Shown piece by piece: positions 5,333-32,744 of a DNA stretch of 32,800 bases; within the stretch, counting starts at the first letter, position 1, and the number at the start of each line of letters is the position of its first letter. Origin of the DNA: a virus. The DNA lies in the IMG/VR virus record IMGVR_UViG_3300005613_000249, positions 1-32,800 of that record, one strand, 5' to 3'. A program made the translations under genes and the position numbers. The notes under the pieces are model-generated. The model saw only the letters and a list, made by a program, of their open reading frames with translations. It did not search any database and had not been told where the DNA came from.

Positions 5333-5665
5333 TTACTCCATTAGTTTACGATAAAAGTAGATTACACCGTTATTAAAATGACTATACTTAAATCTGTTTC
5401 TTAACATCATGTACATAGCACGTTCTGGATTTGTTTGATAAGTTTCTACATTACAAGTCACCTTATCACATTTATTAGCAATACCTATTTCCCCAATCTT
5501 GTCATACATCTTTTTAAAAGCTAATCCAGTACGCTTATCCGGTTTTACATACATATCACCAATATCTAATATATGTGATACTGGATATATCCTATAAGTA
5601 AATATTCCATCTTCAGTCTCTAGAGTCTCATACTCTTTTGTCTCTTTTAGATATTTAGCAAACAC
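5333..5665 (-). CDS. GNAT-fold acetyltransferase-like protein
   Basis: This 110-residue protein starts at GTG 5665, supported by GGAG at good spacing; it overlaps the end of the Hint-tailed gene by 11 nt. The order of segments matches a compact GNAT fold: ILDIGDMYVKPDKRTGLAFK (beta-4 and the acetyl-CoA loop region), a helix, KCDKVTCNVETYQTNPERAM, then LRNRFKYSHFNNGVIYFYRK as the closing strands. The usual Q/RxxGxG/A pyrophosphate loop is weak (KRTGLA), so acetyl-CoA binding is uncertain. Small GNAT-like proteins are common among tail and internal virion genes of podoviruses, where they may be structural. The fold is likely; activity is unproven. Confidence 0.6.
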   Translation of the reverse strand: MFAKYLKETKEYETLETEDGIFTYRIYPVSHILDIGDMYVKPDKRTGLAFKKMYDKIGEIGIANKCDKVTCNVETYQTNPERAMYMMLRNRFKYSHFNNGVIYFYRKLME

Positions 5666-7586
5666 TCTTTAGTTCTCCATGGTTTAAAACAGTTAAACAT
5701 TGATTTAAATCTAAAGATTGTGAATTAGGTACTTCATCATAATCAGCTAATACAACTCCATGTGAAATCATCACATGGTTTTCACATGATAAAGAATAAA
5801 CTTCTGTTACATTATGATCATATACTACCGATGCTTTTCTAGAATTTTCTATTCTCTTCCAGACTCCATCTTCTTTAACAGCATGTTTTCCTGTCACCCA
5901 AATATAAGAGTTTTCTTCATCAGTTGGATAAGAATAAAGAACATCTTCCAAGATATGTTTACTTACAGTGTATACCAGTCCACCTTCAAATAAAATATCC
6001 CCTAATTGAATATCTTTTATTTTCTTATATTTTCCATCCATCATCTTAAATTCTGAATCACCATCGAAACAGGTTACTACATAACCTATTGCCCCACCTA
6101 CAACTGCTCCTGCGGGTCCACCTACTACTCCACCTGCAACAGCTCCTATTATTACTCCTTGACTTTGTTTCTTTTTAGCTTCTTCTTCAGCTTTTCTTGC
6201 TGCTTCTTCAGCAGCTACCGCTGCTAATCTAGCAGCTTCCGCTGCTGCCGCATCTTCTCTAGCTTTTTTTGCTTTAGCTACATCAACTTGAAATGCTTCT
6301 TTATTAAAATCTGCAGCAGGATCTATATAATCTTTATATTTTCCAGCCTGTTCAGAAAAAGGAGTCAAGGTACCAATGCCTCCAGTTAATTCTTCTAATG
6401 CTCTCATTCGAGCATAGTCATCAGCAGAAGCAACATTAGCAGCTTGAATATTCTGATAATCCTGTGGATTCGTAAAATATTTTGATCCACTCGCTAAAAT
6501 ACCTTCTTGAGTACCATAAGTTTTATTAATATAATCTAAATAACTTTCATAATCAGATTTAGCTTTAGCAGAGACTTCGGAAGTATAATCTCTTATCTCT
6601 TGTTCTTCTTTTGTTAGATCAAACTGTTTCCTCATTGCTTCTTTAGTAGCTTTAGTTGTTTCTAATGCTTGCTCATATTCTTGTTGAGACATCTCTCCTA
6701 GACCCTTAATCTGACCTTCAAGTCCAAGACCAGCATCAGCAGCAGCTTGTAGCTGAGCATAAGCTTCTTCATTTCCTGTTAATAGAGCTTCATCTAAAGC
6801 TAGAGCACCTTTAGAAAATCTTCCTGATGGGTTTTCATAAGTTCTGGTCAACAATTCTTGACGACCAGTAATATCTCCGATTAGTCCTGCTGTCCTTTTA
6901 GCTTTTTCTGTATCTCTTAAAGCTTGGGCATAATAATCTTGAGAATATATATCAGTTGGTCCACCATATTCTGCACTATATTGTTTTTTAAATGCATCTG
7001 CATAGGAGAGTTCTTCTTGTGGTGTAAACCCAGCTACATATTCATCATATAGTTTCTGATAATCTTGTTCTTGAACAGGAACTTCACCAGTTTGAGGATA
7101 ATTAGCACCATACCAATCTTCATATTCTTGAGCTTTAGTAGCTGGTTGGTATACACCAGATAAGAAATCTTCTGCTGCACCAGTTTGATATGCTTGTTGA
7201 TCAACTAATGATTCTGTAGCTCTCTTATATAACTCTTGATCTAATTTAGTAGTACCAGCACCAACTGCACTTTTATATTTTTCTCCAGCACCGGTCAGGG
7301 ACTCCTGTGCTCCAGTTATATCCCCAGATATAACACCAGCAGTTTTACCAGCTAACTCTAAAGCTTTCTGTTTGTTCGCTTCCATGTACTTTTGCTGAGT
7401 AGAAACATCTTGTCCCCCAGCAGGAGCAGCAGCTTGACCAGTTCCAGTTTGAGTTACATCTTGGGCACCACCCCCAGCTTGTAGATAATCTCCAGTTTGT
7501 GAAATCTGTTTTACACCTTCACCTTCTGTACCTTGTAAAACATCTTCTTCCTTTTCTTCTTCTAATTTATTAGCTTCATATGCCAT
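5655..7586 (-). CDS. Internal virion/ejection-like protein with glycine zipper and C-terminal Hint (intein-like) domain
   Basis: This 643-residue protein starts at ATG 7586 behind AGGAG. Residues 1-450 are Gln/Gly/Tyr- and Glu-rich with helical stretches. Residues about 445-475 are an Ala/Glu/Lys coiled coil. Residues 479-505 are a Gly-zipper membrane-type segment (IIGAVAGGVVGGPAGAVVGG…). Cys506 opens a 138-residue Hint domain: CFDGDSEFKMMDGKYKKIKD with GDIL, block-B T565-G-K-H568, and the closing VYSLSCENHVMISHGVVL. The Cys1 nucleophile and TxxH are present. The usual C-terminal His-Asn is replaced by Ala-Asp (about residues 614-615), followed by a 28-residue tail. N-terminal thioester cleavage therefore looks possible, but splicing does not. 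The location suggests a protein ejected or membrane-inserted during DNA entry, perhaps released by self-cleavage. Confidence 0.75.
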   Translation of the reverse strand: MAYEANKLEEEKEEDVLQGTEGEGVKQISQTGDYLQAGGGAQDVTQTGTGQAAAPAGGQDVSTQQKYMEANKQKALELAGKTAGVISGDITGAQESLTGAGEKYKSAVGAGTTKLDQELYKRATESLVDQQAYQTGAAEDFLSGVYQPATKAQEYEDWYGANYPQTGEVPVQEQDYQKLYDEYVAGFTPQEELSYADAFKKQYSAEYGGPTDIYSQDYYAQALRDTEKAKRTAGLIGDITGRQELLTRTYENPSGRFSKGALALDEALLTGNEEAYAQLQAAADAGLGLEGQIKGLGEMSQQEYEQALETTKATKEAMRKQFDLTKEEQEIRDYTSEVSAKAKSDYESYLDYINKTYGTQEGILASGSKYFTNPQDYQNIQAANVASADDYARMRALEELTGGIGTLTPFSEQAGKYKDYIDPAADFNKEAFQVDVAKAKKAREDAAAAEAARLAAVAAEEAARKAEEEAKKKQSQGVIIGAVAGGVVGGPAGAVVGGAIGYVVTCFDGDSEFKMMDGKYKKIKDIQLGDILFEGGLVYTVSKHILEDVLYSYPTDEENSYIWVTGKHAVKEDGVWKRIENSRKASVVYDHNVTEVYSLSCENHVMISHGVVLADYDEVPNSQSLDLNQCLTVLNHGELKSVC

Positions 7587-13767: not shown

Positions 13768-16287
<2,520 letters not shown>

Positions 16288-24006: not shown

Positions 24007-24265
24007 TTCTATTCTCCTTTATTTGTTTAAGTTCATTAATTTTTGGTTGGATACTCTGATCAAATAAATAATCTATCAATCCTGGCTCTTTCATTTCTAT
24101 CTGTAATAGTTTCTCCATCAGTCTCTTCACATATCTCTCTTGTGATCTTTCGGAAGTTCTCTTTCCCCACTTAAGATTATCAAGACACGTCTGGGAATCC
24201 CATACGTCCATCTCTCTAAGCTTTAAGCATCCCATATTATGTAGATCAGTTTTATTCAATTTCAT
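23930..24265 (-). CDS. Small basic helical protein, unknown
   Basis: This 111-residue protein starts at ATG 24265, with AGGA 8 nt upstream; a TTG at 24286 is rejected. The product is helical and rich in Lys/Arg/Glu (KRTSERSQERYVKRLMEKLL) with a polar, Asn/Glu-rich C-terminus (about residues 84-111). That C-terminus is encoded by DNA that also encodes the start of the next gene. The function is unknown. It belongs to a tightly packed run of five small genes before the terminase. Confidence 0.6.
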   Translation of the reverse strand: MKLNKTDLHNMGCLKLREMDVWDSQTCLDNLKWGKRTSERSQERYVKRLMEKLLQIEMKEPGLIDYLFDQSIQPKINELKQIKENRNVRGTTNRNQDKEESNTIQGEESGS

Positions 24266-24266
24266 C

Positions 24267-24518
24267 TTAAATATCCTTTTCCTCAATAATATCTGTAGTC
24301 ACAGGAATATCCTCAAGGCATTCCTTTATATCTCTAATTCTCTGAGCGATCTGAAAGTTAAAGGAAGTCAGTATATCTATAGAATCTCTAAGACCTAATG
24401 CTGCTTCAGCATTAAATAGACCATTCTTTAGTTTGCCGACTGTACTAATAAATAACTCTTGATAGGAGCGTAGTTCTTGTTGGCTTAGATTATCTAAATC
24501 TAATTTGAGATTTTCCAT
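24267..24518 (-). CDS. Small acidic helical protein, unknown
   Basis: This 83-residue protein starts at ATG 24518 after AAGGACGG. It is helical with leucine-rich heptads (NLKLDLDNLSQQELRSYQEL, then SFNFQIAQRIRDIKECLEDI) and an acidic end. It stops 1 nt before the next start. The form suits a small oligomeric binding protein. No family is recognised. Confidence 0.65.
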   Translation of the reverse strand: MENLKLDLDNLSQQELRSYQELFISTVGKLKNGLFNAEAALGLRDSIDILTSFNFQIAQRIRDIKECLEDIPVTTDIIEEKDI

Positions 24519-24592
24519 TTATTACCGTCCTTGGTGGGTAAATAGCAAACGTCTAATGATAGCTTGCTCTTTAAAAATATATTAATAATCTA

Positions 24593-24970
24593 TTACAATT
24601 CTATTAAATCCTCTTCATCTAAAGGAGGGGGAGGTGGATCTGGTCTAATAATAAAGGGTGCTTCCCCATTTACTTCAAAATTACCATTCTCATCTCTTTT
24701 AAGATAATACTCCAAGTATTTTAAAGCTTTTTTCAAATGAAAGTCATTGCGTAAACCCTCTCTAAAGTTCTCATTCCCAGCTCTTAAAAAAACTTGGACC
24801 ATCGCATCAGAAGAAAGAGATAGTACTTTCTTCCCCAATCTAGGTTTCATCTTTTCTTTATTTACAAATTTTTTAATTTTGTATTCTAGCGTCTGTGTCT
24901 TTCTGTAATACCAGATAGTTACCCACACTAGATTCACTGCTAAGATTGTAAGTAGTAAATAAAATTCCAT
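24593..24970 (-). CDS. Membrane-anchored protein with proline-rich tail, unknown
   Basis: This 125-residue protein starts at ATG 24970 behind AAGGAG. Residues 3-21 form a hydrophobic anchor (FYLLLTILAVNLVWVTIWYY) followed by basic residues, which suggests the bulk faces the cytoplasm or inner leaflet. The middle is basic and helical (RLGKKVLSLSSDAMVQVFLR). The end is IRPDPPPPPLDEEDLIEL, a proline run followed by an acidic tail. Another single-anchor protein is encoded five genes further along. A lysis or superinfection-exclusion role is possible, but nothing specific is seen. Confidence 0.65.
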   Translation of the reverse strand: MEFYLLLTILAVNLVWVTIWYYRKTQTLEYKIKKFVNKEKMKPRLGKKVLSLSSDAMVQVFLRAGNENFREGLRNDFHLKKALKYLEYYLKRDENGNFEVNGEAPFIIRPDPPPPPLDEEDLIEL

Positions 24971-25000
24971 TAAAAACTCCTTTACCTTATATGATTTTTG

Positions 25001-25375
25001 TTAAGTATCTAGCTCTGTAAGTCTATGTTTTGAGTTAATTAGATAATAGGAGGGGTGTAAATCTATCTTTTCTAAAAACAGGTGTGACATCGCTAGCAGA
25101 CTTTCTTCTCCTTCTAAATCTTTTTTCTTAACATTAATCAAAAACTTTTTAAAATAACCCCTCAATTCTTCTTCTTTCATTAATATCGTGTTGAAAAGAA
25201 TGGGGGGGATGACCTCGTAGAGTAGAACAAATTGACCAAAAAGCCCCCTAACTCTTCGGTTAGGGAATAATCTTTCCTTTTCCAGCTCAATAATTAAAGC
25301 TTTGTCATATTGTCCGTCCTTAATTAAACGAGAAACCGATAGTCTAGTGGTCTTAATTTTTTTGTCTGGTTTCAT
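25001..25375 (-). CDS. Unknown basic helical protein
   Basis: This 124-residue protein is read from ATG 25375, where AGGGA stands upstream; an ATG at 25432 would add 19 basic residues but lies within a predicted hairpin and has poorer spacing. The product begins MKPDKKIKTTRLSVSRLIKD, then DKALIIELEKERLFPNRRVR and a hydrophobic helix (FGQFVLLYEVIPPILFNTIL). The function is unknown. The leader hairpin (25393-25443) directly upstream may affect its translation. Confidence 0.6.
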   Translation of the reverse strand: MKPDKKIKTTRLSVSRLIKDGQYDKALIIELEKERLFPNRRVRGLFGQFVLLYEVIPPILFNTILMKEEELRGYFKKFLINVKKKDLEGEESLLAMSHLFLEKIDLHPSYYLINSKHRLTELDT

Positions 25376-25392
25376 TGTTGTTTCCCTTTTTC

Positions 25393-25443
25393 TCTCGGGG
25401 TATCTCAGTTTTAAATCCGCTCTTTTCCGCATGTGCCCCGAGA
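25393..25443 (-). promoter_or_regulatory. Long-loop hairpin in the leader of the 124-aa gene
   Basis: TCTCGGGG and CCCCGAGA pair perfectly over 8 bp around a 35-nt loop, just before the ribosome site of the gene at 25001-25375. The alternative start ATG 25432 lies in the loop. It could gate start choice or protect the mRNA. Only the pairing is seen. Confidence 0.4.
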
Positions 25444-25483
25444 AGCCCTCCCAGTAGACCTTTAGAAGGCTTTTTTAAGCTAT

Positions 25484-25705
25484 CTAAGGGTTTTCGGGAA
25501 CATCCTGTTTTACTTTATTTAAATATTTATCATACACCCTAGATTTTTCTATCTCTTTTAATCTTCTTTGTTGTCTATAAAATCTATTAATATGCATAAT
25601 AGGTTGTATATCTCTTAAGCAATCCTGGACGTAATGTTTATATTGTCTAAGGATTTTGTTAACAGTTACAGATGTTAGAGATGTACTTTTTATTGTATCA
25701 ACCAT
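25484..25705 (-). CDS. Small basic protein, unknown
   Basis: This 73-residue protein starts at ATG 25705 behind AAAGGAG. It is basic and helical (VNKILRQYKHYVQDCLRDIQ, then INRFYRQQRRLKEIEKSRVY). It is the first well-supported gene after a 400-nt region with little coding sequence. A nucleic-acid-binding role would suit the charge, but there is no motif. Confidence 0.6.
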   Translation of the reverse strand: MVDTIKSTSLTSVTVNKILRQYKHYVQDCLRDIQPIMHINRFYRQQRRLKEIEKSRVYDKYLNKVKQDVPENP

Positions 25706-26109
25706 TAGTTTCTCCTTTAAGTAAGTTAGTTGTACTGTATGTCATCGCATCATACTTAGCTGTTACTTTATCTTAGCTGTTACTATATTTCGTATAGTTT
25801 AAAGAACACCTCACTAAAATTACTCTACGACATTTCACGCTACTACAGCTCACTATACCCATCGTTCCACTTTAAAGTCATTCCACCGTGATTTAATTAC
25901 ATCATATCTAGCTTCACCTACTACAGAATCACAAAAAATATTACTCCACTGATAACAGTACTGCGTATCTACTTTACTACACTTATAATCTTGCTGCATC
26001 ATACTGATCTGCACCTCACCTAACTATTACAGGATAACACTGTATCATAGGTATACATCACCTCGCTAATTACTTTATCCTTCAGCTTTTAAAGTATTAA
26101 GGAATAATA
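25706..26109. other. 404-nt region of low coding content with strong strand asymmetry
   Basis: No gene of normal size lies here. From 25801 to 26040 the plus strand holds about 68 C but only about 20 G, much more skewed than nearby genes. Short words of the tact/ctac type recur every 10-20 nt, and cttagctgttact occurs twice (25755-25767 and 25772-25784). Within it is one 49-codon minus-strand ORF (25853-26002). The region could hold regulatory sites or a replication element, or a chain of tiny genes. No terminator or tRNA is seen. Confidence 0.5.
25853..26002 (-). CDS. Possible 49-residue protein
   Basis: ATG 26002 opens 49 codons to TAG 25853. GAGGTG lies about nine bases upstream. The product would be MMQQDYKCSKVDTQYCYQWS followed by NIFCDSVVGEARYDVIKSRW and a short end. 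It has three Cys and four Trp but no known motif. A spare ORF of this size can arise by chance, so the call is tentative. Its composition is more protein-like than that of the neighbouring tiny ORFs. Confidence 0.3.
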   Translation of the reverse strand: MMQQDYKCSKVDTQYCYQWSNIFCDSVVGEARYDVIKSRWNDFKVERWV

Positions 26110-26973
26110 CTACATCCATCCTTCTTCAGAATTTTCTACTAACTCTACATAATCCTCAAGTTTTTTTAATTTAAAATCAAATGTGCCAAACATATTTGAG
26201 GATCTAAATGCTCCTAATCCTATATTTTTGCCATGACTAAATATACTCTCTAGTACTTCCAAATCATTTATTTTAGAATCTCTTCTAATTCTTAAAGTGG
26301 TTGAGAAAGTAGTTTTAGGTGGTAATTGTTCACTAGCTGCTAGGGCACTCATTATTTGTCCCATTCTAGTAAATCTTAAGGGTCTTATATTAAGTATACG
26401 TTCTTTTGTTTCTGGGTCTCTTATAATATCGTGAGAAGCTACTAAAAAAGTTTCACAAAATTTTAAATCCATGGACATGGATTCTCCCATCTGTACTTTA
26501 CTCTTTAAGATACTCTTATCCCCCCCATTAATAACATTAGCTAATACTGCTTTTACAAAGCCTAGAATCATGTGTGAAGATATCCCGACATTTCCATTAC
26601 TGTCCCTTAAAAATACAGTAGATTTGTAGAGTTCATGATCCTGCAGATAATTATCTAAACGCTGTTCTACATCTTTAGAGTACAAAAGAATATCATCTAG
26701 AGCATTAGGTATCTCTTCTTTTACATTTAGTAATTCTTGTTGTGCTCTTAAAATTCCTTTCAATTCTTCAATCTCTTTCTGCTGAGAGATGTTCTCCCCC
26801 TTGTACTTTTTAAGAGATTTACTAATCTTTTTAGAAGCAGCATTTGCTAATTTAATCTGTTCCCGAGATTTGTTAATTACATGCTCATGCATGATGTCAA
26901 CAGAAGCGTTTGTCCCCAGCATCGGCTCTCGGAGTCTTAATTGTAAATCATAATAATCAAAGATTTTGTTCAT
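26110..26973 (-). CDS. Phage early protein of unknown function, GLGAFR-type C-terminus
   Basis: This 287-residue protein starts at ATG 26973 behind GAAGGAG; an upstream ATG at 27000 has no site. After a basic, coiled-coil part (EQIKLANAASKKISKSLKKY, then QQKEIEELKGILRAQQELL) it has an alpha/beta domain ending in SHGKNIGLGAFRSSNMFGTF. That closing pattern (G-K-x-I-G-L-G-x-x-R-x-x-x-F-G-x-F) recalls a group of phage proteins often found near replication genes, but I cannot name the family. It heads the unit that leads into the packaging genes, behind its own TATAAT box and just after a terminator. Confidence 0.65.
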   Translation of the reverse strand: MNKIFDYYDLQLRLREPMLGTNASVDIMHEHVINKSREQIKLANAASKKISKSLKKYKGENISQQKEIEELKGILRAQQELLNVKEEIPNALDDILLYSKDVEQRLDNYLQDHELYKSTVFLRDSNGNVGISSHMILGFVKAVLANVINGGDKSILKSKVQMGESMSMDLKFCETFLVASHDIIRDPETKERILNIRPLRFTRMGQIMSALAASEQLPPKTTFSTTLRIRRDSKINDLEVLESIFSHGKNIGLGAFRSSNMFGTFDFKLKKLEDYVELVENSEEGWM

Positions 26974-27051: not shown

Positions 27052-27081
27052 AAAAAAAAAGGGGGAAAAAGAATTTCCCCC
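27052..27081 (-). terminator. Strong rho-independent terminator after the polyamine genes
   Basis: On the minus strand GGGGGAAA, a 5-nt loop and TTTCCCCC form an 8-bp stem, followed by nine T. It ends the early unit that carries the initiator and polyamine genes. It is the strongest terminator in the window. Confidence 0.85.
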
Positions 27082-27115
27082 TAGACGACAAAACAACAAA
27101 AAATAAGAAAGGAGT

Positions 27116-27164: not shown

Positions 27165-27836
27165 TTAAAGAAGGGGTTTAGGAGCTAGTCCAAATCGCCA
27201 GTCCTGAGTCGTTATATATTTAATTTCAGATTTAAAGTATTCCCGTACAGTTATATCTAAATAAGACTTAGAGAATTTACAACCATCTTGCCAACTTAAT
27301 AGTCCCCCGGGTTTGATGCATCTAAATATTTCTGATATCCATTCCTGCTGTTCTTCTTTAATAGCTTCCGAAGTGAGATCTAGGATTATATACTCATAAG
27401 TATGATCAGGGGTATTTTTAAGGACTTTTAGACCATCATCACAAATAAATTTCCATTCGTTAGTTCTTTTGTATATAGATTCATTCCAGTCAGAAAAGTG
27501 TGTATCTATCAAGTGGACAGCTTGTGGGTCTATATCTACTCCGGTAATATTTTTCCAACCTCTTCTTTGTAAGAGGTTAATAGAGACACCTTCTCCAGAT
27601 CCTAGTACTAGGACGTGTTCAGAGGGGTGAGGTTTGTACCAGAAGACCAGATTCTCATGATACTCCTTATAACATCTCTCCGAGGATTGTAGCTCATTAT
27701 TCATAATCAAAGATTTTCCCTGATCCTCAATATCAGCAATTAAAATTTCCTGATAAGGAGTAACTTCATGAGCTATCACTCTTCTTACTTTTAAATGTAT
27801 TTCGTGACTGTCCTGAATTACTTTAGCGTATAACAT
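27165..27836 (-). CDS. speE: Spermidine synthase-like aminopropyltransferase
   Basis: This 223-residue protein starts at ATG 27836 in a TAATG overlap with the SpeD-like gene. Its plan follows polyamine aminopropyltransferases: an N-terminal beta part with the substrate strand (KSLIMNNELQSSERCYKEYH; Gln50, Tyr59, His60, Glu61), LVLGSGEG (residues 77-83) for the nucleoside, VDID (100-103) for the ribose, CDDG (132-135) for adenine, ILDLTSE (151-157) at the active site and the family ending DWRFGLAPKP. It would move the aminopropyl group from decarboxylated AdoMet to an amine. The usual acceptor-site D-x-x-D-P has become D-L-T-S-E, and the Asp of the E-R-D-E motif is Cys55, so the acceptor may differ. 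It is somewhat shorter than cellular enzymes (about 280). Confidence 0.8.
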   Translation of the reverse strand: MLYAKVIQDSHEIHLKVRRVIAHEVTPYQEILIADIEDQGKSLIMNNELQSSERCYKEYHENLVFWYKPHPSEHVLVLGSGEGVSINLLQRRGWKNITGVDIDPQAVHLIDTHFSDWNESIYKRTNEWKFICDDGLKVLKNTPDHTYEYIILDLTSEAIKEEQQEWISEIFRCIKPGGLLSWQDGCKFSKSYLDITVREYFKSEIKYITTQDWRFGLAPKPLL

Positions 27837-28156
27837 TAGTTTCTATCCATTTCTACGATGTCTTCTACTTTAGAAGAAGTAAGTTTAGCTAGTCTTCTAA
27901 TTATGGACTTGTAAGGGATATTAGGATTACAACTAAATAGATCTACCATTACTTTGTTGTCTTCGAAGAAGGAATGGATAGAGAAGTGTGACTCACCAAG
28001 TAAGAGTACTGCAGTTATTCCTTCAAGATCTTTAAATTCATGTTTAATAGCACCTTTAATATCTAGATTAAATTCTCTAGCGGTAGCTGCTAAAGAGTTC
28101 TCCCAGATCCAATTATCTTTAATGCCATTAGTTAGTTTACACATAATATGCTTCAT
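27836..28156 (-). CDS. speD: S-adenosylmethionine decarboxylase proenzyme (small bacterial/archaeal class)
   Basis: This 106-residue protein starts at ATG 28156 behind AGGGG. The core ITAVLLLGESHFSIHSFFED followed by VMVDLFSCN is the signature of prokaryotic AdoMet decarboxylase. Self-cleavage before Ser56 (Glu55-Ser56) would give the pyruvoyl cofactor. His61 and Cys76 stand 5 and 20 residues after it, the same spacing as in the Thermotoga-type enzyme (Ser63, His68, Cys83). The length is slightly below the usual 115-130. It makes decarboxylated AdoMet, the donor for the SpeE-like enzyme coupled to it. All catalytic residues are present, so activity is likely. Confidence 0.88.
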   Translation of the reverse strand: MKHIMCKLTNGIKDNWIWENSLAATAREFNLDIKGAIKHEFKDLEGITAVLLLGESHFSIHSFFEDNKVMVDLFSCNPNIPYKSIIRRLAKLTSSKVEDIVEMDRN

Positions 28157-28217
28157 TCACACCCCTTTAATATGTATAGATCTATATAAGTATTGTATTA
28201 GTGAGAAGATTAAGTTG

Positions 28218-28658
28218 TCAATTTTTCTTATTTCTAAGTTTCAAATAGAAGATTGTTACCATAGGATCAAACCTATCAAGAAATTCCTTGTTTACTTTAA
28301 ATTTCTTTTTCCCTTCTTGTTCTTCCCTTAACTCTTCAAGGTACTTTTCCGCTTCATCTTCATCTTTCTCAGCCTCTTTAAATATAGAAGAATAGACACT
28401 AGCACACATATTAAAGGTTTCTCTTGCCCAGTAATATTTATCTACCCCCTCATATCCTTTCACACCACATAAAGAATATTCACAGTTAAGATCATCAACA
28501 AACTTAAAAAAGGATTCTTCAGGGATAGTAAATTTTCTCTTATAAGTATTAAGTCTAACAGAAGGATATTTCTGTTTAAGAGTTTCTATTGCATCTCGGT
28601 AAGATTTTTGATAGGTATAGTTATTCTTATGATTTTTAAGTTTGTCACTGAATCCCAT
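28218..28658 (-). CDS. Unknown early protein
   Basis: This 146-residue protein starts at ATG 28658 behind GAGGG, overlapping the initiator gene by 14 nt. It has a Lys/Tyr-rich start (KLKNHKNNYTYQKSYRDAIE), a central Cys-containing domain (FVDDLNCEYSLCGVKGYEGV) and an acidic coiled coil (EAEKDEDEAEKYLEELREEQ). It ends with a short hydrophobic helix and Lys/Asn. It lies between the initiator and polyamine genes, so an early role in replication or takeover is possible. No family is recognised. Confidence 0.65.
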   Translation of the reverse strand: MGFSDKLKNHKNNYTYQKSYRDAIETLKQKYPSVRLNTYKRKFTIPEESFFKFVDDLNCEYSLCGVKGYEGVDKYYWARETFNMCASVYSSIFKEAEKDEDEAEKYLEELREEQEGKKKFKVNKEFLDRFDPMVTIFYLKLRNKKN

Positions 28659-29439
28659 CTTTACCCTCTAATACTTTATCTAATACTCTTTCTTTTTCTT
28701 TTCTTAATTTACTCTCTATAAACTTTTCTGTGTTATTTACTTTTACTTTTTTATCTTTTACCCATTTAAAGGTTCTAACTAAGAATCCCCATACATCTGT
28801 ATACTCCCCATACATTGCATCCAACTGTTTAAAGTAATCACTATCCTTATTTATTATTGTAGTTCCATTTAAAGTAACAATATTATTTAGACTCAGCGAG
28901 TCCGCAGGACTTGCCAGTTCAGTCCCCATAGTATTACACCTAGATCTCCGAAGACTCGAAGAGGCTGAGGAGGAGCTAGTATTTCTTATAGAATTCGAGG
29001 GGGCAACATCCGAGGATTCTATATATTTATTGGAGCTGTAATTTGGCAGGCATGGTGGCTGTAATTTGGCAGGCATGGTGGCTGTAATTTGGCAGGCATC
29101 ATGTTTAGGGGGTTCTACATAGTCATTATACCTTTTAACGTGTATAGTCGTACCTTTTCGAGTTGTGTAATAGTTTATGTATCCTTTCTCTTTTAGAGAG
29201 TCTCTTGTCTTTTTATAGGTTCTATAGTCTCTTATATTCAACTCTTTCATTAGGGAGCGATAAGCTACCACAAAAGATCCTCTAGGGATGTCATCCCCTT
29301 TCTTACCTAACCCATACTTAAAATTTGCTTTAGTAATGCAATAGACTAAGAAGACCTTTTCGGAATGTGTTAAAGTTTCATCACTTAGTATTTTAATTAG
29401 ACTTTTTCGTCCGAAGTGGATATAGGAAATGCTTCGCAT
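28645..29439 (-). CDS. Phage replication initiator-like protein (winged helix N-terminus)
   Basis: This 264-residue protein starts at ATG 29439 behind AAGGAG and is the first gene of the minus arm. Residues 20-105 have the form of phage replisome-organiser winged helices: LTHSEKVFLVYCITKANFKY, IPRGSFVVAYRSLMKELNIR, TRDSLKEKGYINYYTTRKGT. A Ser/Thr/Arg-rich linker (about 112-180) includes residues encoded by three 23-bp DNA iterons. The C-terminal part (MYGEYTDVWGFLVRTFKWVK) is a basic helical domain that could recruit a host helicase loader. With no polymerase or helicase in the genome, it probably directs the host replisome to the phage origin, as lambda O does. Confidence 0.7.
   Translation of the reverse strand: MRSISYIHFGRKSLIKILSDETLTHSEKVFLVYCITKANFKYGLGKKGDDIPRGSFVVAYRSLMKELNIRDYRTYKKTRDSLKEKGYINYYTTRKGTTIHVKRYNDYVEPPKHDACQITATMPAKLQPPCLPNYSSNKYIESSDVAPSNSIRNTSSSSASSSLRRSRCNTMGTELASPADSLSLNNIVTLNGTTIINKDSDYFKQLDAMYGEYTDVWGFLVRTFKWVKDKKVKVNNTEKFIESKLRKEKERVLDKVLEGKDGIQ
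29035..29103. repeat. Three 23-bp iterons inside the initiator gene (candidate origin)
   Basis: Copies lie at 29035-29057, 29058-29080 and 29081-29103. The first two are identical and the third differs only in its last bases. The minus-strand core is CCTGCCAAATTACAGC. Because 23 is not a multiple of three, the copies code different residues (ACQIT, PAKLQ, LPNYS), so selection is on the DNA. An AT-rich stretch (29018-29032) adjoins. The arrangement matches lambda-type origins inside the initiator gene. Confidence 0.7.
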
Positions 29440-29846: not shown

Positions 29847-30104
29847 ATGAACACCTTTTTACAAAATAAAGCTAACCTAAAACTCTTAAGTATCTATACG
29901 CAAATTGCAGAAGATGTTTTTTTTAAAATTCCCGAAACTATCCTTACTATTAGAAAGGATAACTTAAGTAATGCAGAGTATAAAGAATATCTACTTTTCA
30001 TTGAAGCAACTCTTAAAAGAAAATATATAGTATCTAGAATGCCCATGGTTTCGATGTATTACTATATACTAAAAGTTAAAAGAAATGGATTAGGAGAAGA
30101 ATGA
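29847..30104 (+). CDS. Small helical protein, unknown
   Basis: This 85-residue protein starts at ATG 29847, 2 nt after the previous stop and without a clear ribosome site, so translation is probably coupled. It is helical and basic (NLKLLSIYTQIAEDVFFKIP, EYKEYLLFIEATLKRKYIVS). Its stop overlaps the start of the methyltransferase gene. The function is unknown. Confidence 0.6.
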   Translation: MNTFLQNKANLKLLSIYTQIAEDVFFKIPETILTIRKDNLSNAEYKEYLLFIEATLKRKYIVSRMPMVSMYYYILKVKRNGLGEE

Positions 30105-30736
30105 TGCAATATCCCACACAACAATTAATAGATAACCGAAACAAATTTTTAGCTAAAGAAGAGGAAATTAAAAATTATGTTGCATCTAAAGATGATATAG
30201 TAGCACTTCATTTAGGATGTGGTAACAAGATTTTTAAGGGGTTTAGTAATATTGATAAGTACTATAAGGAGACACGGGTTCTTAATCAAGATATGTACAA
30301 ATTAGATTTTTCTAATAATTCTGTTAATCTTATTTTTAGTTGCCATGCTCTAGAGCATTTGCCCATTAGACATGCTAAGTTAGCAATTAAAGAGTGGTAC
30401 AGAATTTTAAAAGAAGGTGGGTTACTATTTTTAGCTGTACCTGATTTAGAAACGATATGTACTTTACTAATAGATAGGGATCTACCAGCGGATCATAGAG
30501 AATGGTTTGTGTATACTTTATTTGGTTATCAGGTCGACCCCGATAAAAAGGACTTAAATTTGGATGCTCCAGTCGATCTGGGGCAATTTCACACATCAGG
30601 GTATACTGAGTATACCCTCTCTCAAGAATTCTTCCAGAATGGCTTCTATATTAAAAATCTATATAGATATGACGGCTGGTCTACACCTTCCATATTTGTA
30701 GAAGCTGTTAAAGGTAGTAGTCATGGCGCACTATGA
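30104..30736 (+). CDS. SAM-dependent methyltransferase (COG4627-like)
   Basis: This 210-residue protein starts at the second of two adjacent ATGs (30104; 30101 is also possible), which stands 7 nt after AGGAG. Class I methyltransferase features are clear: motif I HLGCGNKIFKGFSNID, the acidic turn D-x-Y-K-L-D-F, then IFSCHALEHLPIRHAKLAIK and EWYRILKEGGLLFLAVPD. This arrangement is typical of predicted methyltransferases tied to glycan or surface-polysaccharide clusters. The substrate cannot be read from the sequence. It overlaps the next methyltransferase gene by 14 nt, so the two probably act together. Confidence 0.85.
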   Translation: MQYPTQQLIDNRNKFLAKEEEIKNYVASKDDIVALHLGCGNKIFKGFSNIDKYYKETRVLNQDMYKLDFSNNSVNLIFSCHALEHLPIRHAKLAIKEWYRILKEGGLLFLAVPDLETICTLLIDRDLPADHREWFVYTLFGYQVDPDKKDLNLDAPVDLGQFHTSGYTEYTLSQEFFQNGFYIKNLYRYDGWSTPSIFVEAVKGSSHGAL

Positions 30737-31250
30737 ACAAATTCAATTCTGTTTAAGAGTAAAACAGAATTTCCCCGAACATTTTAAAAATAAGAGAGTG
30801 CTCGATGTTGGCTCGCTTGATATTAATGGCAATAACCGTTATCTATTTAAAGACTGTATCTATACAGGTCTAGACATTGCACCCGGTAAAAATGTAGATA
30901 TTATTTGTCCTGCTCATCTACATAATGGAAAATATGACACCATTATAAGCACTGAATCTTTTGAACACGATATATATTATAAGGATAGTTTAAAAAATAT
31001 TGTTAAGATGCTAGAACCTAATGGGCTGTTTTTGTTTACCTGTGCCAGTGAAGGTAGACCTGAACATGGCACTAGGCGTTCAGAACCATCTGCTGCCCCC
31101 CTTTTAAGTGGGGAATGGGCTGATTATTACAAAAATCTCACCGAAGAAGATATCAAAGAAGCACTAAATGAATTATATTTAATCTTTAGAAAGTATGAAT
31201 TTTCTCGGGAAAAACCGGATGATCTTTACTTTTACGGGATTAAATACTAG
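30723..31250 (+). CDS. SAM-dependent methyltransferase (Methyltransf_11-like)
   Basis: This 175-residue protein starts at ATG 30723. Motif I is VLDVGSLDINGNNRYLF, followed by YTGLDIAPGKNVDI, a YDTIISTESFEHD segment and ILKMLEP-like KMLEPNGLFLFTCAS. The tail GRPEHGTRRSEPSAAPLL is a loop seen in methyltransferases of environmental phages and sugar clusters. Its first bases overlap the preceding methyltransferase gene. The substrate is unknown; a surface glycan or nucleotide sugar fits the pair better than DNA, because no target-recognition domain is present. Confidence 0.82.
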   Translation: MAHYEQIQFCLRVKQNFPEHFKNKRVLDVGSLDINGNNRYLFKDCIYTGLDIAPGKNVDIICPAHLHNGKYDTIISTESFEHDIYYKDSLKNIVKMLEPNGLFLFTCASEGRPEHGTRRSEPSAAPLLSGEWADYYKNLTEEDIKEALNELYLIFRKYEFSREKPDDLYFYGIKY

Positions 31251-31308: not shown

Positions 31309-31337
31309 TTGTATACTTTAACACTCTGTGCTATACT
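31309..31337 (+). promoter_or_regulatory. Probable extended -10 promoter before the lipoprotein gene
   Basis: TTGTAT (31309-31314) and TATACT (31332-31337) stand 17 nt apart, with TGC directly before the -10 box (extended -10). The start would fall near 31344, about 19 nt before the gene. This gives the distal plus-arm genes their own transcription, as in phage moron genes. Confidence 0.45.
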
Positions 31338-31362
31338 AAAATTAAGAAGAAAAGGAGAAAAA

Positions 31363-31800
31363 ATGAAAACTTTAAAAATTACTAACGACTTACATTTAAA
31401 ACTAAAAAAAGAAGCACTGCGCAGAAACATGACCTTAATGCAACTTGTAATAGAAATTATTACAAAGTACTTTGCAACTTTGTGTCTAACTGTGTTATTA
31501 GTAAGCTGTGCATCACAAAAAATGTATACTAAGATTGACGAGACTAACTACGAGAGATTTGAGCATAAGCAAAAAATTGAACTCGGATTAAGTATGCAGC
31601 AAGTTCTAAAAATGTTCGGCACTCCTTCGGATTATAAAAAAGGTTGGAGAGATGGAGAGGACACGGTTGAATTTATTTACTATAATAATATAGCGTGTTC
31701 TAGTGTGTATTGTTTTGTAGAGTTTAATTTAGATGATAAGGAAGTTGTACATTTTGTTAATTTTAGGATGGAATATATTAACCTTATTACTAAAAATTAA
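31363..31800 (+). CDS. Ribbon-helix-helix / lipoprotein fusion with BamE-like domain
   Basis: This 145-residue protein starts at ATG 31363 behind AAAGGAG; an upstream in-frame ATG/TTG lies inside the promoter. Residues 1-37 (MKTLKITNDLHLKLKKEALR then MTLMQLVIEIITKYF) look like a ribbon-helix-helix DNA-binding unit. Residues 38-49 (ATLCLTVLLVSC) are a hydrophobic segment with a lipobox ending at Cys49. Residues 70-145 resemble the SmpA/BamE fold: IELGLSMQQVLKMFGTPSDY followed by strands. The frame is open throughout. It may be a true fusion, or the first part may simply serve as an odd signal peptide, with an internal start at Met23. Lipoproteins of this kind in phages can alter the outer membrane. 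Confidence 0.65.
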   Translation: MKTLKITNDLHLKLKKEALRRNMTLMQLVIEIITKYFATLCLTVLLVSCASQKMYTKIDETNYERFEHKQKIELGLSMQQVLKMFGTPSDYKKGWRDGEDTVEFIYYNNIACSSVYCFVEFNLDDKEVVHFVNFRMEYINLITKN

Positions 31801-31845: not shown

Positions 31846-31938
31846 ATGAGTTTAGACAAGAATATGTTAACTTTTTTAAAAAAAGCAATAAACACCGCAC
31901 TAAAGAAAGAAGGTTACTTCTTTAAAGAAGAAAACTAA
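31846..31938 (+). CDS. 30-residue protein before the ADP-ribosyltransferase gene
   Basis: ATG 31846 opens 30 codons ending in TAA 31936-31938, which overlaps the next ATG as TAATG. The product is MSLDKNMLTFLKKAINTALK followed by KEGYFFKEEN, a basic amphipathic helix with a short acidic end. The ribosome site is weak (GGGG about ten bases upstream, half in a CCCC-TTAT-GGGG hairpin at 31824-31835). The coupling suggests it sets expression of the enzyme, as a leader or small partner. A 31-codon ORF from 31831 in another frame is less likely. Confidence 0.5.
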   Translation: MSLDKNMLTFLKKAINTALKKEGYFFKEEN

Positions 31939-32744
31939 TGGCAACTAGAAAACAAGTAAAAACAAAGAAGAGAGAGAAAGCTATTAAGAAGAAAGCTAAT
32001 CTTACTAGAAATAAAACTCCTGAAGAGGTGGCGAAGTCTCAAGGAATTTGTTATATAGACAATGATGCTACTAATTTAATATACAACAAAGAAACTTGGA
32101 AAGAGGATTTTCGTAAAAAAGTAAGAGAAGTTATGGATGGTCAGACACTAATTGCTGATTGTTGTCTTCTAGCAGCCACGGAGTTAGTAAATTGTTCTAA
32201 AACAACAGATGAGTATATGCGTTTTACTGTGATGTTAATGAATATGGTTTCTGTTGTTACAGATTCTTATTTCAAAAAACATAAAGATAAAATATTAGAA
32301 GGTAGGGATAAAGCAATTAAAATTTGTGGTTACAGCGAAGATAAACTGTACAGAGGTTTGATAGTGGATGAGAAGTCTATCCTAGATAATAGGTTAATAC
32401 CTTTAAATGGAGCAACTACCTTGTCCTTTTCTAAATCAAAGAAGATTGCTAAACAATTTAGTGACAAGGAAGATACTCGTCTAGGTGGGGATATGCTTTG
32501 GAGGCAGCACACTAACCCCGTTGCAGTTAATATAGAGTATATAGCAAAAAAAGAAGAAGTATTATTTAGCTATGAGTGGGCTGAGATGTTAGATATACAA
32601 ACACACAGAAAGAACATAAATAATGCTTTAGCATACATTTTCGGAATGTCTAATAGTATCGATGATGTTGGCTGGCTAGAAGAAGTAATTCTTCTTGAAA
32701 AAGGTACTTATTTTAAATTTGACAAATCTTTTAAATCTATATAG
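31938..32744 (+). CDS. Putative ADP-ribosyltransferase
   Basis: This 268-residue protein starts at ATG 31938. After a very basic start (residues 1-35) and a helical domain (50-130), residues 136-265 follow the ADP-ribosyltransferase fold of the R-S-E type. Arg139 lies in KLYRGLIVDE, TLSFSKSKKIAKQF (161-174) matches the S-T-S strand and helix, and the ending LEEVILLEKGTYFKFD (247-262) matches the catalytic E-V-L-L-P-x-G-T strand, with Glu249 as the catalytic glutamate. Two residues before it is Leu247, where arginine-specific enzymes have Glu. Phages such as T4 inject or make such enzymes to modify host RNA polymerase and other proteins. The fold is likely; the target is unknown. Confidence 0.68.
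   Translation: MATRKQVKTKKREKAIKKKANLTRNKTPEEVAKSQGICYIDNDATNLIYNKETWKEDFRKKVREVMDGQTLIADCCLLAATELVNCSKTTDEYMRFTVMLMNMVSVVTDSYFKKHKDKILEGRDKAIKICGYSEDKLYRGLIVDEKSILDNRLIPLNGATTLSFSKSKKIAKQFSDKEDTRLGGDMLWRQHTNPVAVNIEYIAKKEEVLFSYEWAEMLDIQTHRKNINNALAYIFGMSNSIDDVGWLEEVILLEKGTYFKFDKSFKSI

Follow-up and report, generated by a model that had tools for sequence, protein, structure and literature searches.

A compact SpeD–SpeE-type gene pair in small phages as a putative polyamine cassette

Phage versions of SpeD that act as AdoMet decarboxylase (AdoMetDC), arginine decarboxylase (ADC) or ornithine decarboxylase (ODC) have been published, together with a single phage speD–speE pair from an uncultured Caudovirales phage (PMC9992855). 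Both genes of this pair are reported to be functional in E. coli, and the introduction to that work presents phages as needing spermidine. A tblastn search with canonical SpeE across 50,697 annotated phage records returned one phage, Microcystis phage MaAM05, and two Salmonella-derived records that resemble host DNA; the published survey likewise holds one phage speD–speE pair (PMC9992855). Here, we describe a more compact pair of this kind in a stretch of 32,800 nt (positions 1 to 32,800 of IMG/VR virus record IMGVR_UViG_3300005613_000249), hereafter called the window. The pair probably constitutes a phage polyamine cassette, in which a SpeD-family protein (SpeD1) would make dcAdoMet and a SpeE-like protein (SpeE) would aminopropylate an amine, the likeliest conversion being that of putrescine to spermidine or a close relative of it.

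The gene pair, its genome and its relatives

The ORF list of the window contains a SpeD-family ORF of 106 aa at 27836-28156 and an aminopropyltransferase-family ORF of 223 aa at 27165-27836, both on the minus strand and both with an ATG start. They are joined by AAC TAA TG, where one A is common to the stop and the start codon (a TAATG overlap). The coordinates, the length of 106 aa and the join agree with a preliminary description of this DNA, and the observation of a coupled SpeD/aminopropyltransferase pair is confirmed. A promoter-like site (TTGACA-18-TACAAT, minus strand, 28192..28221) lies 36 bases upstream of SpeD1; it is a consensus match only (11/12 positions), and such sites are no commoner in the region than in shuffles (12 versus 10.3 +/- 2.8). 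Downstream of SpeE, at a distance of 83 bases, there is a terminator-like hairpin followed by a T run (AGGGGGAAA-TTCTT-TTTCCCCCT, minus strand, 27060..27082), a type of site that occurs 6 times in the region against 1.1 +/- 1.2 in shuffles. Because a promoter-like site precedes the pair and a strong terminator-like hairpin follows it, SpeD1 and SpeE may form a transcription unit of their own. Hairpins are also found 3′ of SpeE in two related phages (G001 and G002), and none was found at this position in a third (G004).

The window begins and ends with the same 123 bases. The record is therefore probably complete, representing a circular map with 32,677 bp of unique sequence, in line with the small genome that had been claimed. 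Profile searches recognised a terminase, a portal protein and a DnaD-like helicase loader (28645-29439). The label 'podovirus' is plausible in light of matches to portal, terminase and internal-virion-type proteins, with morphology being read here from genes. The claim that the phage has no polymerase of its own holds for the large ORFs that were profile-scanned, among which none was recognised; the scan took in large ORFs other than a collagen-like one of 833 aa, and part of the small ORFs. A long collagen-like GxTG repeat protein (13768-16269, minus strand), matched in all three relatives, is probably a fibre. By eye, a virion-region protein of 643 aa (5655-7586, minus strand) has a C-terminal part resembling a Hint/intein-type self-processing domain (CFDGDSEF..., GDILFEGG..., GKHAVKEDG), with a Hint/intein-like counterpart in G001 (24078-26174, plus strand) and no Pfam or PHROG match for the domain. 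Likewise by eye only, the motifs YRG, SFS and EEVILLEKG of a 268-aa protein (31938-32744, plus strand; no Pfam or PHROG match) recall ADP-ribosyltransferases.

Searching IMG/VR with the capsid protein yielded two related phages, G001 (33,425 bp) and G002 (35,572 bp), and searching it with a SpeE alignment yielded a third, G004 (32,598 bp). SpeD1 and SpeE are adjacent in all four IMG/VR records that are long enough, the window included, and a search for the pair in related phages, as had been proposed, thus finds it kept throughout. Identities between the window proteins and those of the three relatives are 51, 51 and 44% for SpeE and 48, 48 and 38% for SpeD1, and many further genes are common to the four phages with their relative order unchanged. 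G002 and G004 have identical ends of 114 bases and G001 has none; given these ends, all of the four records but G001 look like complete genomes that were assembled as circles. Two other records of the group, both fragments (8.6 and 5.6 kb), contain neither SpeD nor SpeE, nor does the Silvanigrella phage record CP017838, whose capsid and terminase mark it as distantly related. Terminase and capsid alignment searches gave no additional complete member of the group, single-sequence scans of IMG/VR for close relatives of the window SpeE or SpeD gave no match, and a pattern scan of genome contigs with the phage SpeE alignment gave no bacterial relative. No tRNA genes were found in the four phage records. 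G001 (IMGVR_UViG_3300035698_020136) comes from an Ace Lake (Antarctica) co-assembly (PMC8542988) and also encodes a DegT-type aminotransferase and a double GT2 glycosyltransferase.

Besides SpeD1, two of the relatives (G002 and G004) encode another SpeD homologue (SpeD2), which lies apart from the SpeD1–SpeE pair. In G002, SpeD2 is flanked by a small gene and a lipoprotein-like gene that are related to window genes at 29847-30104 and 31309-31800, respectively. The corresponding slot of the window holds two methyltransferase-like genes (30101-31250, plus strand), the second of which matches phrog_32762 at 6e-45. A homologue search of the window genome did not find SpeD2, an absence that is probably real because the window looks complete. 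SpeD2 has the motifs QLIETS..HF..IYLD..FSC, and both copies contain the Gln, Thr, Phe and Tyr that are diagnostic of SpeDC (Q-LIETS-...-HF-...-IYLD), as far as these four residues can be placed from published text. In a SpeD tree of 46 different rows (with identical rows, duplicate loci and the partial locus L045 excluded), both SpeD2 proteins fall within the SpeDC (ornithine-decarboxylase) clade with a support of 100/99. G004 SpeD2 is 58-60% identical to SpeDC domains from Desulfotignum, Krumholzibacteriota, Deltaproteobacteria and an unclassified bacterium, the value for Desulfotignum being 58%, with SpeDC there as domain two of a SpeD-SpeDC fusion. At two Desulfotignum loci, the SpeDC domain forms the second half of such a fusion and is followed by SpeE; passages of PMC10407285 ascribe both AdoMetDC and ODC activities to the D. 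phosphitoxidans fusion. SpeD, SpeDC and SpeE are adjacent at bacterial loci L033-L037, and three IMG/VR contigs (G008, G009 and G007; loci L052, L053 and L054) have SpeD and SpeDC homologues in tandem with no SpeE match on the same contig. In principle, G002 and G004 could encode the conversion of ornithine to putrescine and on to spermidine in genomes of less than 36 kb.

The SpeE-like protein

SpeE (27165..27836, minus strand) is a shortened member of the aminopropyltransferase family with a remodelled acceptor side. It matches the Pfam model PF01564 (Spermine_synth) with 50.1 bits (3.1e-13; curated cut-off 22.9 bits), while the N-terminal domain model PF17284 stays slightly below its cut-off (21.1 versus 22.1 bits). 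Its best NCBIfam model is polyamine aminopropyltransferase, at a score well short of equivalog level, and it misses the speE equivalog cut-offs of PRK00811 (81.2 versus 260) and TIGR00417 (64.6 versus 249.55). A profile of the four phage sequences finds aminopropyltransferases in the PDB down to 8e-28. The 46 best-ranked fold matches of the structural model (pLDDT 82.3) are all aminopropyltransferases (Z 20.0-25.8), including human spermine synthase (25.8), Pyrobaculum SpeE (24.3) and the T. thermophilus enzyme (23.1); next in rank, and the first beyond this family, comes the archaeal m4(2)C synthase 8vyd with Z 17.9. Methyltransferase models are weaker (best 1.7e-9 versus 3.1e-13 for Spermine_synth), and the plain methyltransferase that the preliminary description had named as an outcome against its own reading did not materialise. 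The Spermine_synth score above its cut-off and the fold together place SpeE in the aminopropyltransferase family.

Residue roles were taken from passages on the Arabidopsis and Kluyveromyces spermidine synthases (PMC6514230, PMC10146546). The equivalents of the donor residues Gln107, Asp131, Glu151 and Asp182 are His60, Glu82, Asp101 and Asp134; the catalytic Asp201 corresponds to Asp153 (codon 27380-27378, minus strand) and Tyr106 to Tyr59. The dcAdoMet-site residues, Tyr59 and the catalytic Asp153 are retained in all four phages, with Glu at position 101 in G002 and G004. This His/Glu/Asp donor combination is that of a plant thermospermine synthase, for which the His is described as uninformative and the Glu as merely partly diagnostic (PMC11107197).

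The acceptor side is different. The second Asp of DxxDP (Asp204), the anchor for putrescine, is replaced by Ser156 (codon 27371-27369, minus strand) in 4/4 phages, which have DLTSE, DLTSK, DLDSK and DLPSI at this place, while DxxDP is intact in the seven bacterial SpeEs, the MaAM05 SpeE and the 1uir fragment of the same alignment. In all four phage proteins, the gate loop is also shortened by a gap of 3-6 residues, and neither the Tyr-bearing PTYPSG strand nor the last ~40 residues at the C-terminus are present; the Trp/Glu of the N-terminal hairpin are not evident in the alignment. The acceptor features of a spermidine synthase (DxxDP, gate loop, PTYPSG) are hence absent or altered throughout. 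The four proteins have invariant residues of their own instead (Ser156, Gln183-Asp184-Gly185 and Asp212-Trp213). Of the acceptor changes claimed earlier, DLTSE is real and its Ser general, whereas Cys55, at the Asp of ERDE, is restricted to the window and is Asp in the other three; Cys55 was dropped as a specificity residue. By family and modelled fold, SpeE is an aminopropyltransferase, but this does not prove it to be a spermidine synthase. It seems to combine intact donor chemistry with a rebuilt acceptor groove, and the lost features argue against the label of spermidine synthase, not against the possibility of working like one.

SpeE could instead be a minimal aminopropyltransferase without the canonical putrescine groove, fed with dcAdoMet by its own SpeD1 and acting through an opened, rebuilt groove on a non-standard acceptor, such as a larger or longer polyamine, a guanidino polyamine, a nucleotide or nucleic acid, a peptide or another macromolecule. 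We regard this as possible but rather unlikely, both for the minimal enzyme and for its non-standard acceptor. The loss of the same acceptor features in all four proteins, their retained donor and base residues and their shared invariant residues would fit such an enzyme, as would the fact that the best fold match outside the classical aminopropyltransferases (8vyd) is, by its title, an enzyme acting for the ribosome. However, Asp212 or other residues could substitute for the lost Asp, the region is poorly modelled (pLDDT <50 at 185-190 and 204-214), and no modification gene cluster was recognised; a role in DNA or tRNA modification, as suggested earlier, found no positive evidence. The best pointer to the acceptor is found beyond the window: two sister phages carry an ODC-type SpeD, which would supply the ordinary acceptor, so that putrescine is favoured over the unusual polyamine or other substrate of the preliminary description.

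AdoMet or arginine as the substrate of SpeD1

SpeD1 (27836..28156, minus strand) appears to be a class 1b SpeD-family pyruvoyl decarboxylase proenzyme. It matches PF02675 (AdoMet_dc) with 53.1 bits (4.5e-14; curated cut-off 25 bits), and its best NCBIfam model is adenosylmethionine decarboxylase, at a score well under the equivalog cut-off (TIGR03330, 49.7 versus 75.65 bits). The AlphaFold model (pLDDT 95.3) aligns with T. maritima AdoMetDC (1vr7/1tlu) over 105 residues (Z 16.1, rmsd 1.6). Ser56 (27991-27989), His61 (27976-27974) and Cys76 (27931-27929; all codons on the minus strand) have the offsets +5 and +20 of S63/H68/C83 in T. maritima, bearing out the small-SpeD spacing reported earlier, and self-cleavage would be expected at Glu55-Ser56. 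Pfam score, triad and fold thus agree on the SpeD family with its class 1b AdoMetDC fold. The bare spacing is weak evidence for this identity, as S-x4-H-x14-C occurs 3 times in the 13,023 positions of the window's stop-to-stop ORFs of at least 60 aa; the identity is carried by the profile match and the fold. Loss of the pyruvoyl serine in close relatives, which had been named as counter-evidence, is not seen, the Ser being retained in 4/4.

The triad is not diagnostic of the substrate either. According to passages of PMC10407285, SpeD homologues that decarboxylate arginine or ornithine also retain the Ser/His/Cys spacing, so this spacing cannot prove AdoMet decarboxylation, and its use as such a mark was abandoned. 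The same passages single out one proline ('gamma'), present in every bona fide AdoMetDC, as what chiefly separates AdoMetDC from ADC, and report several independent origins of ADC. We placed the gamma proline, from that text, at the Pro of the HTWPE motif, where G004 has it (HTYPE) and the window (HSFFE), G001 (HTFFE) and G002 (HTFHE) do not; judged by this placement, the window SpeD1 lacks the residue of a bona fide AdoMetDC.

SpeD1 of these three phages might have shifted to arginine decarboxylation (SpeDA type), with SpeE using agmatine and dcAdoMet from the host, a reading that we consider improbable. In its favour, the Phe, Phe and His at the proline position of the window, G001 and G002 have a parallel in the validated arginine decarboxylase of pelagiphage HTVC201P, which aligns there with HSWDE (Asp for Pro), and ADC has arisen repeatedly. 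The proline is not a decisive marker, however, since the SpeD of phage phiN3, which aligns with HFCD, also lacks it and is reported to be a bona fide AdoMetDC (PMC9992855). All three proteins retain ESH as well as the aromatic residue and the Glu at the HTWPE motif. In the tree, all four SpeD1 proteins lie on the AdoMetDC side (support 99/92), beside the SpeDs of cyanophages P-SSM4 and P-TIM40 (98/93), so the three group with the proline-containing G004; this placement is relative to the ODC/ADC clade, the sampling being without ADCs that arose inside the AdoMetDC side. Furthermore, G002 already has an ODC-type copy, and a second diamine source would leave its SpeE in need of host dcAdoMet. 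The balance tips towards AdoMetDC activity, given the clade, the retained ESH and Glu, the coupling to SpeE and a distinct ODC-type copy in G002.

A putative polyamine cassette among known systems

If the pair functions as a polyamine cassette, SpeD1 would cleave itself to become a pyruvoyl enzyme and decarboxylate S-adenosylmethionine. SpeE would hold the resulting dcAdoMet via His60, Glu82, Asp101 and Asp134. Using Asp153 as the base, it would then pass the aminopropyl moiety on to an amine, the likeliest being putrescine. The products would be methylthioadenosine and spermidine (or a close relative, for instance aminopropylagmatine or thermospermine). The window phage would draw its putrescine from the host, while SpeD2 would open a route from ornithine to spermidine in G002 and G004. 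The benefit might lie in translation and in charge neutralisation of packaged DNA. The lost acceptor Asp (Ser in 4/4) and the other missing acceptor features, the window SpeD1 without the HTWPE Pro and the unreached equivalog cut-offs speak against the cassette. Spermidine production during infection is the simplest common reading because two apparently complete sisters encode enzymes for both putrescine and dcAdoMet. Of the preliminary interpretation, the coupled pair, conserved in 4/4, and the altered acceptor site endure, while the spacing as proof of AdoMet decarboxylation and Cys55 as a conserved trait do not.

It is very unlikely that the pair serves to drain AdoMet and so blunt a methylation-dependent host defence, with the polyamine as a by-product. 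AdoMet-degrading phage enzymes do exist, such as the T3 SAMase (PMC7877911), and the cassette looks self-contained, but SpeE is unnecessary for draining, and the presence of SpeD2 in two sister phages suggests a role in supplying polyamines. That SpeE is a methyltransferase or a decayed enzyme, as its matches to several methyltransferase models and a length about 50-90 residues below that of the SpeE chains compared might suggest, can practically be dismissed: aminopropyltransferase models and folds score far better, the frames are open at about 50% identity, and the acidic Glu82, kept in 4/4, should repel the AdoMet carboxylate, as a passage of PMC3725402 indicates for the equivalent Asp.

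Under the cassette reading, a lineage of 32-36 kb phages with no recognised polymerase would encode the last polyamine steps in 4/4 members and apparently the whole ornithine route in 2/4. This suggests that polyamine supply can limit very small phages, and viruses of even this size may produce polyamines themselves. The compact proteins (106, 117-118 and 223 aa) would also suit testing of a minimal SpeE acceptor site for aminopropyl transfer.

Among known systems, the speD–speE of the uncultured Caudovirales phage (PMC9992855, Fig. 3) is alike in clustering an AdoMetDC with a spermidine synthase. Its SpeE is reported to be closest to gammaproteobacterial homologues, whereas the window SpeE is shortened and changed on the acceptor side; here, moreover, genome sizes are 32-36 kb, and an ODC-type SpeD is present in addition in two relatives. 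Microcystis phage MaAM05 (MW495066; speD-speD2-speE-speB) likewise combines two SpeD homologues with SpeE in one phage, but it is a 274-kb record with an ordinary full-length SpeE with DxxDP and an agmatinase. The second speD of MaAM05 (locus L017, 2922-5700) lacks the HTWPE proline (HSFID) and lies beside speD, speE and agmatinase, a context that suggests an arginine decarboxylase. Bacterial speD-speDC-speE operons and SpeD-SpeDC fusions (Desulfotignum, Atribacteria; passages of PMC10407285) have the same three enzyme types, yet their SpeE is canonical, and in the phages SpeD2 stands apart from the SpeD1–SpeE pair. The closest sequence relatives of SpeE with known structure, from T. thermophilus (1uir/3anx) and Pyrobaculum calidifontis (7xif), share the Glu in GGG(D/E)G but are longer proteins in which DLTDP is present and the gate loop complete. 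The SpeD-derived arginine decarboxylase of HTVC201P is also a small phage SpeD without the HTWPE proline, but its cleavage serine sits in ETS instead of ESH, it belongs to a separate clade and it has no SpeE in the neighbourhood examined. In the open-licence PMC literature, we recognised no account of small phages that combine the three genes. Polyamine synthesis by phages, one with speD–speE among them, was known before; what appears to be new is the compact variant described here.
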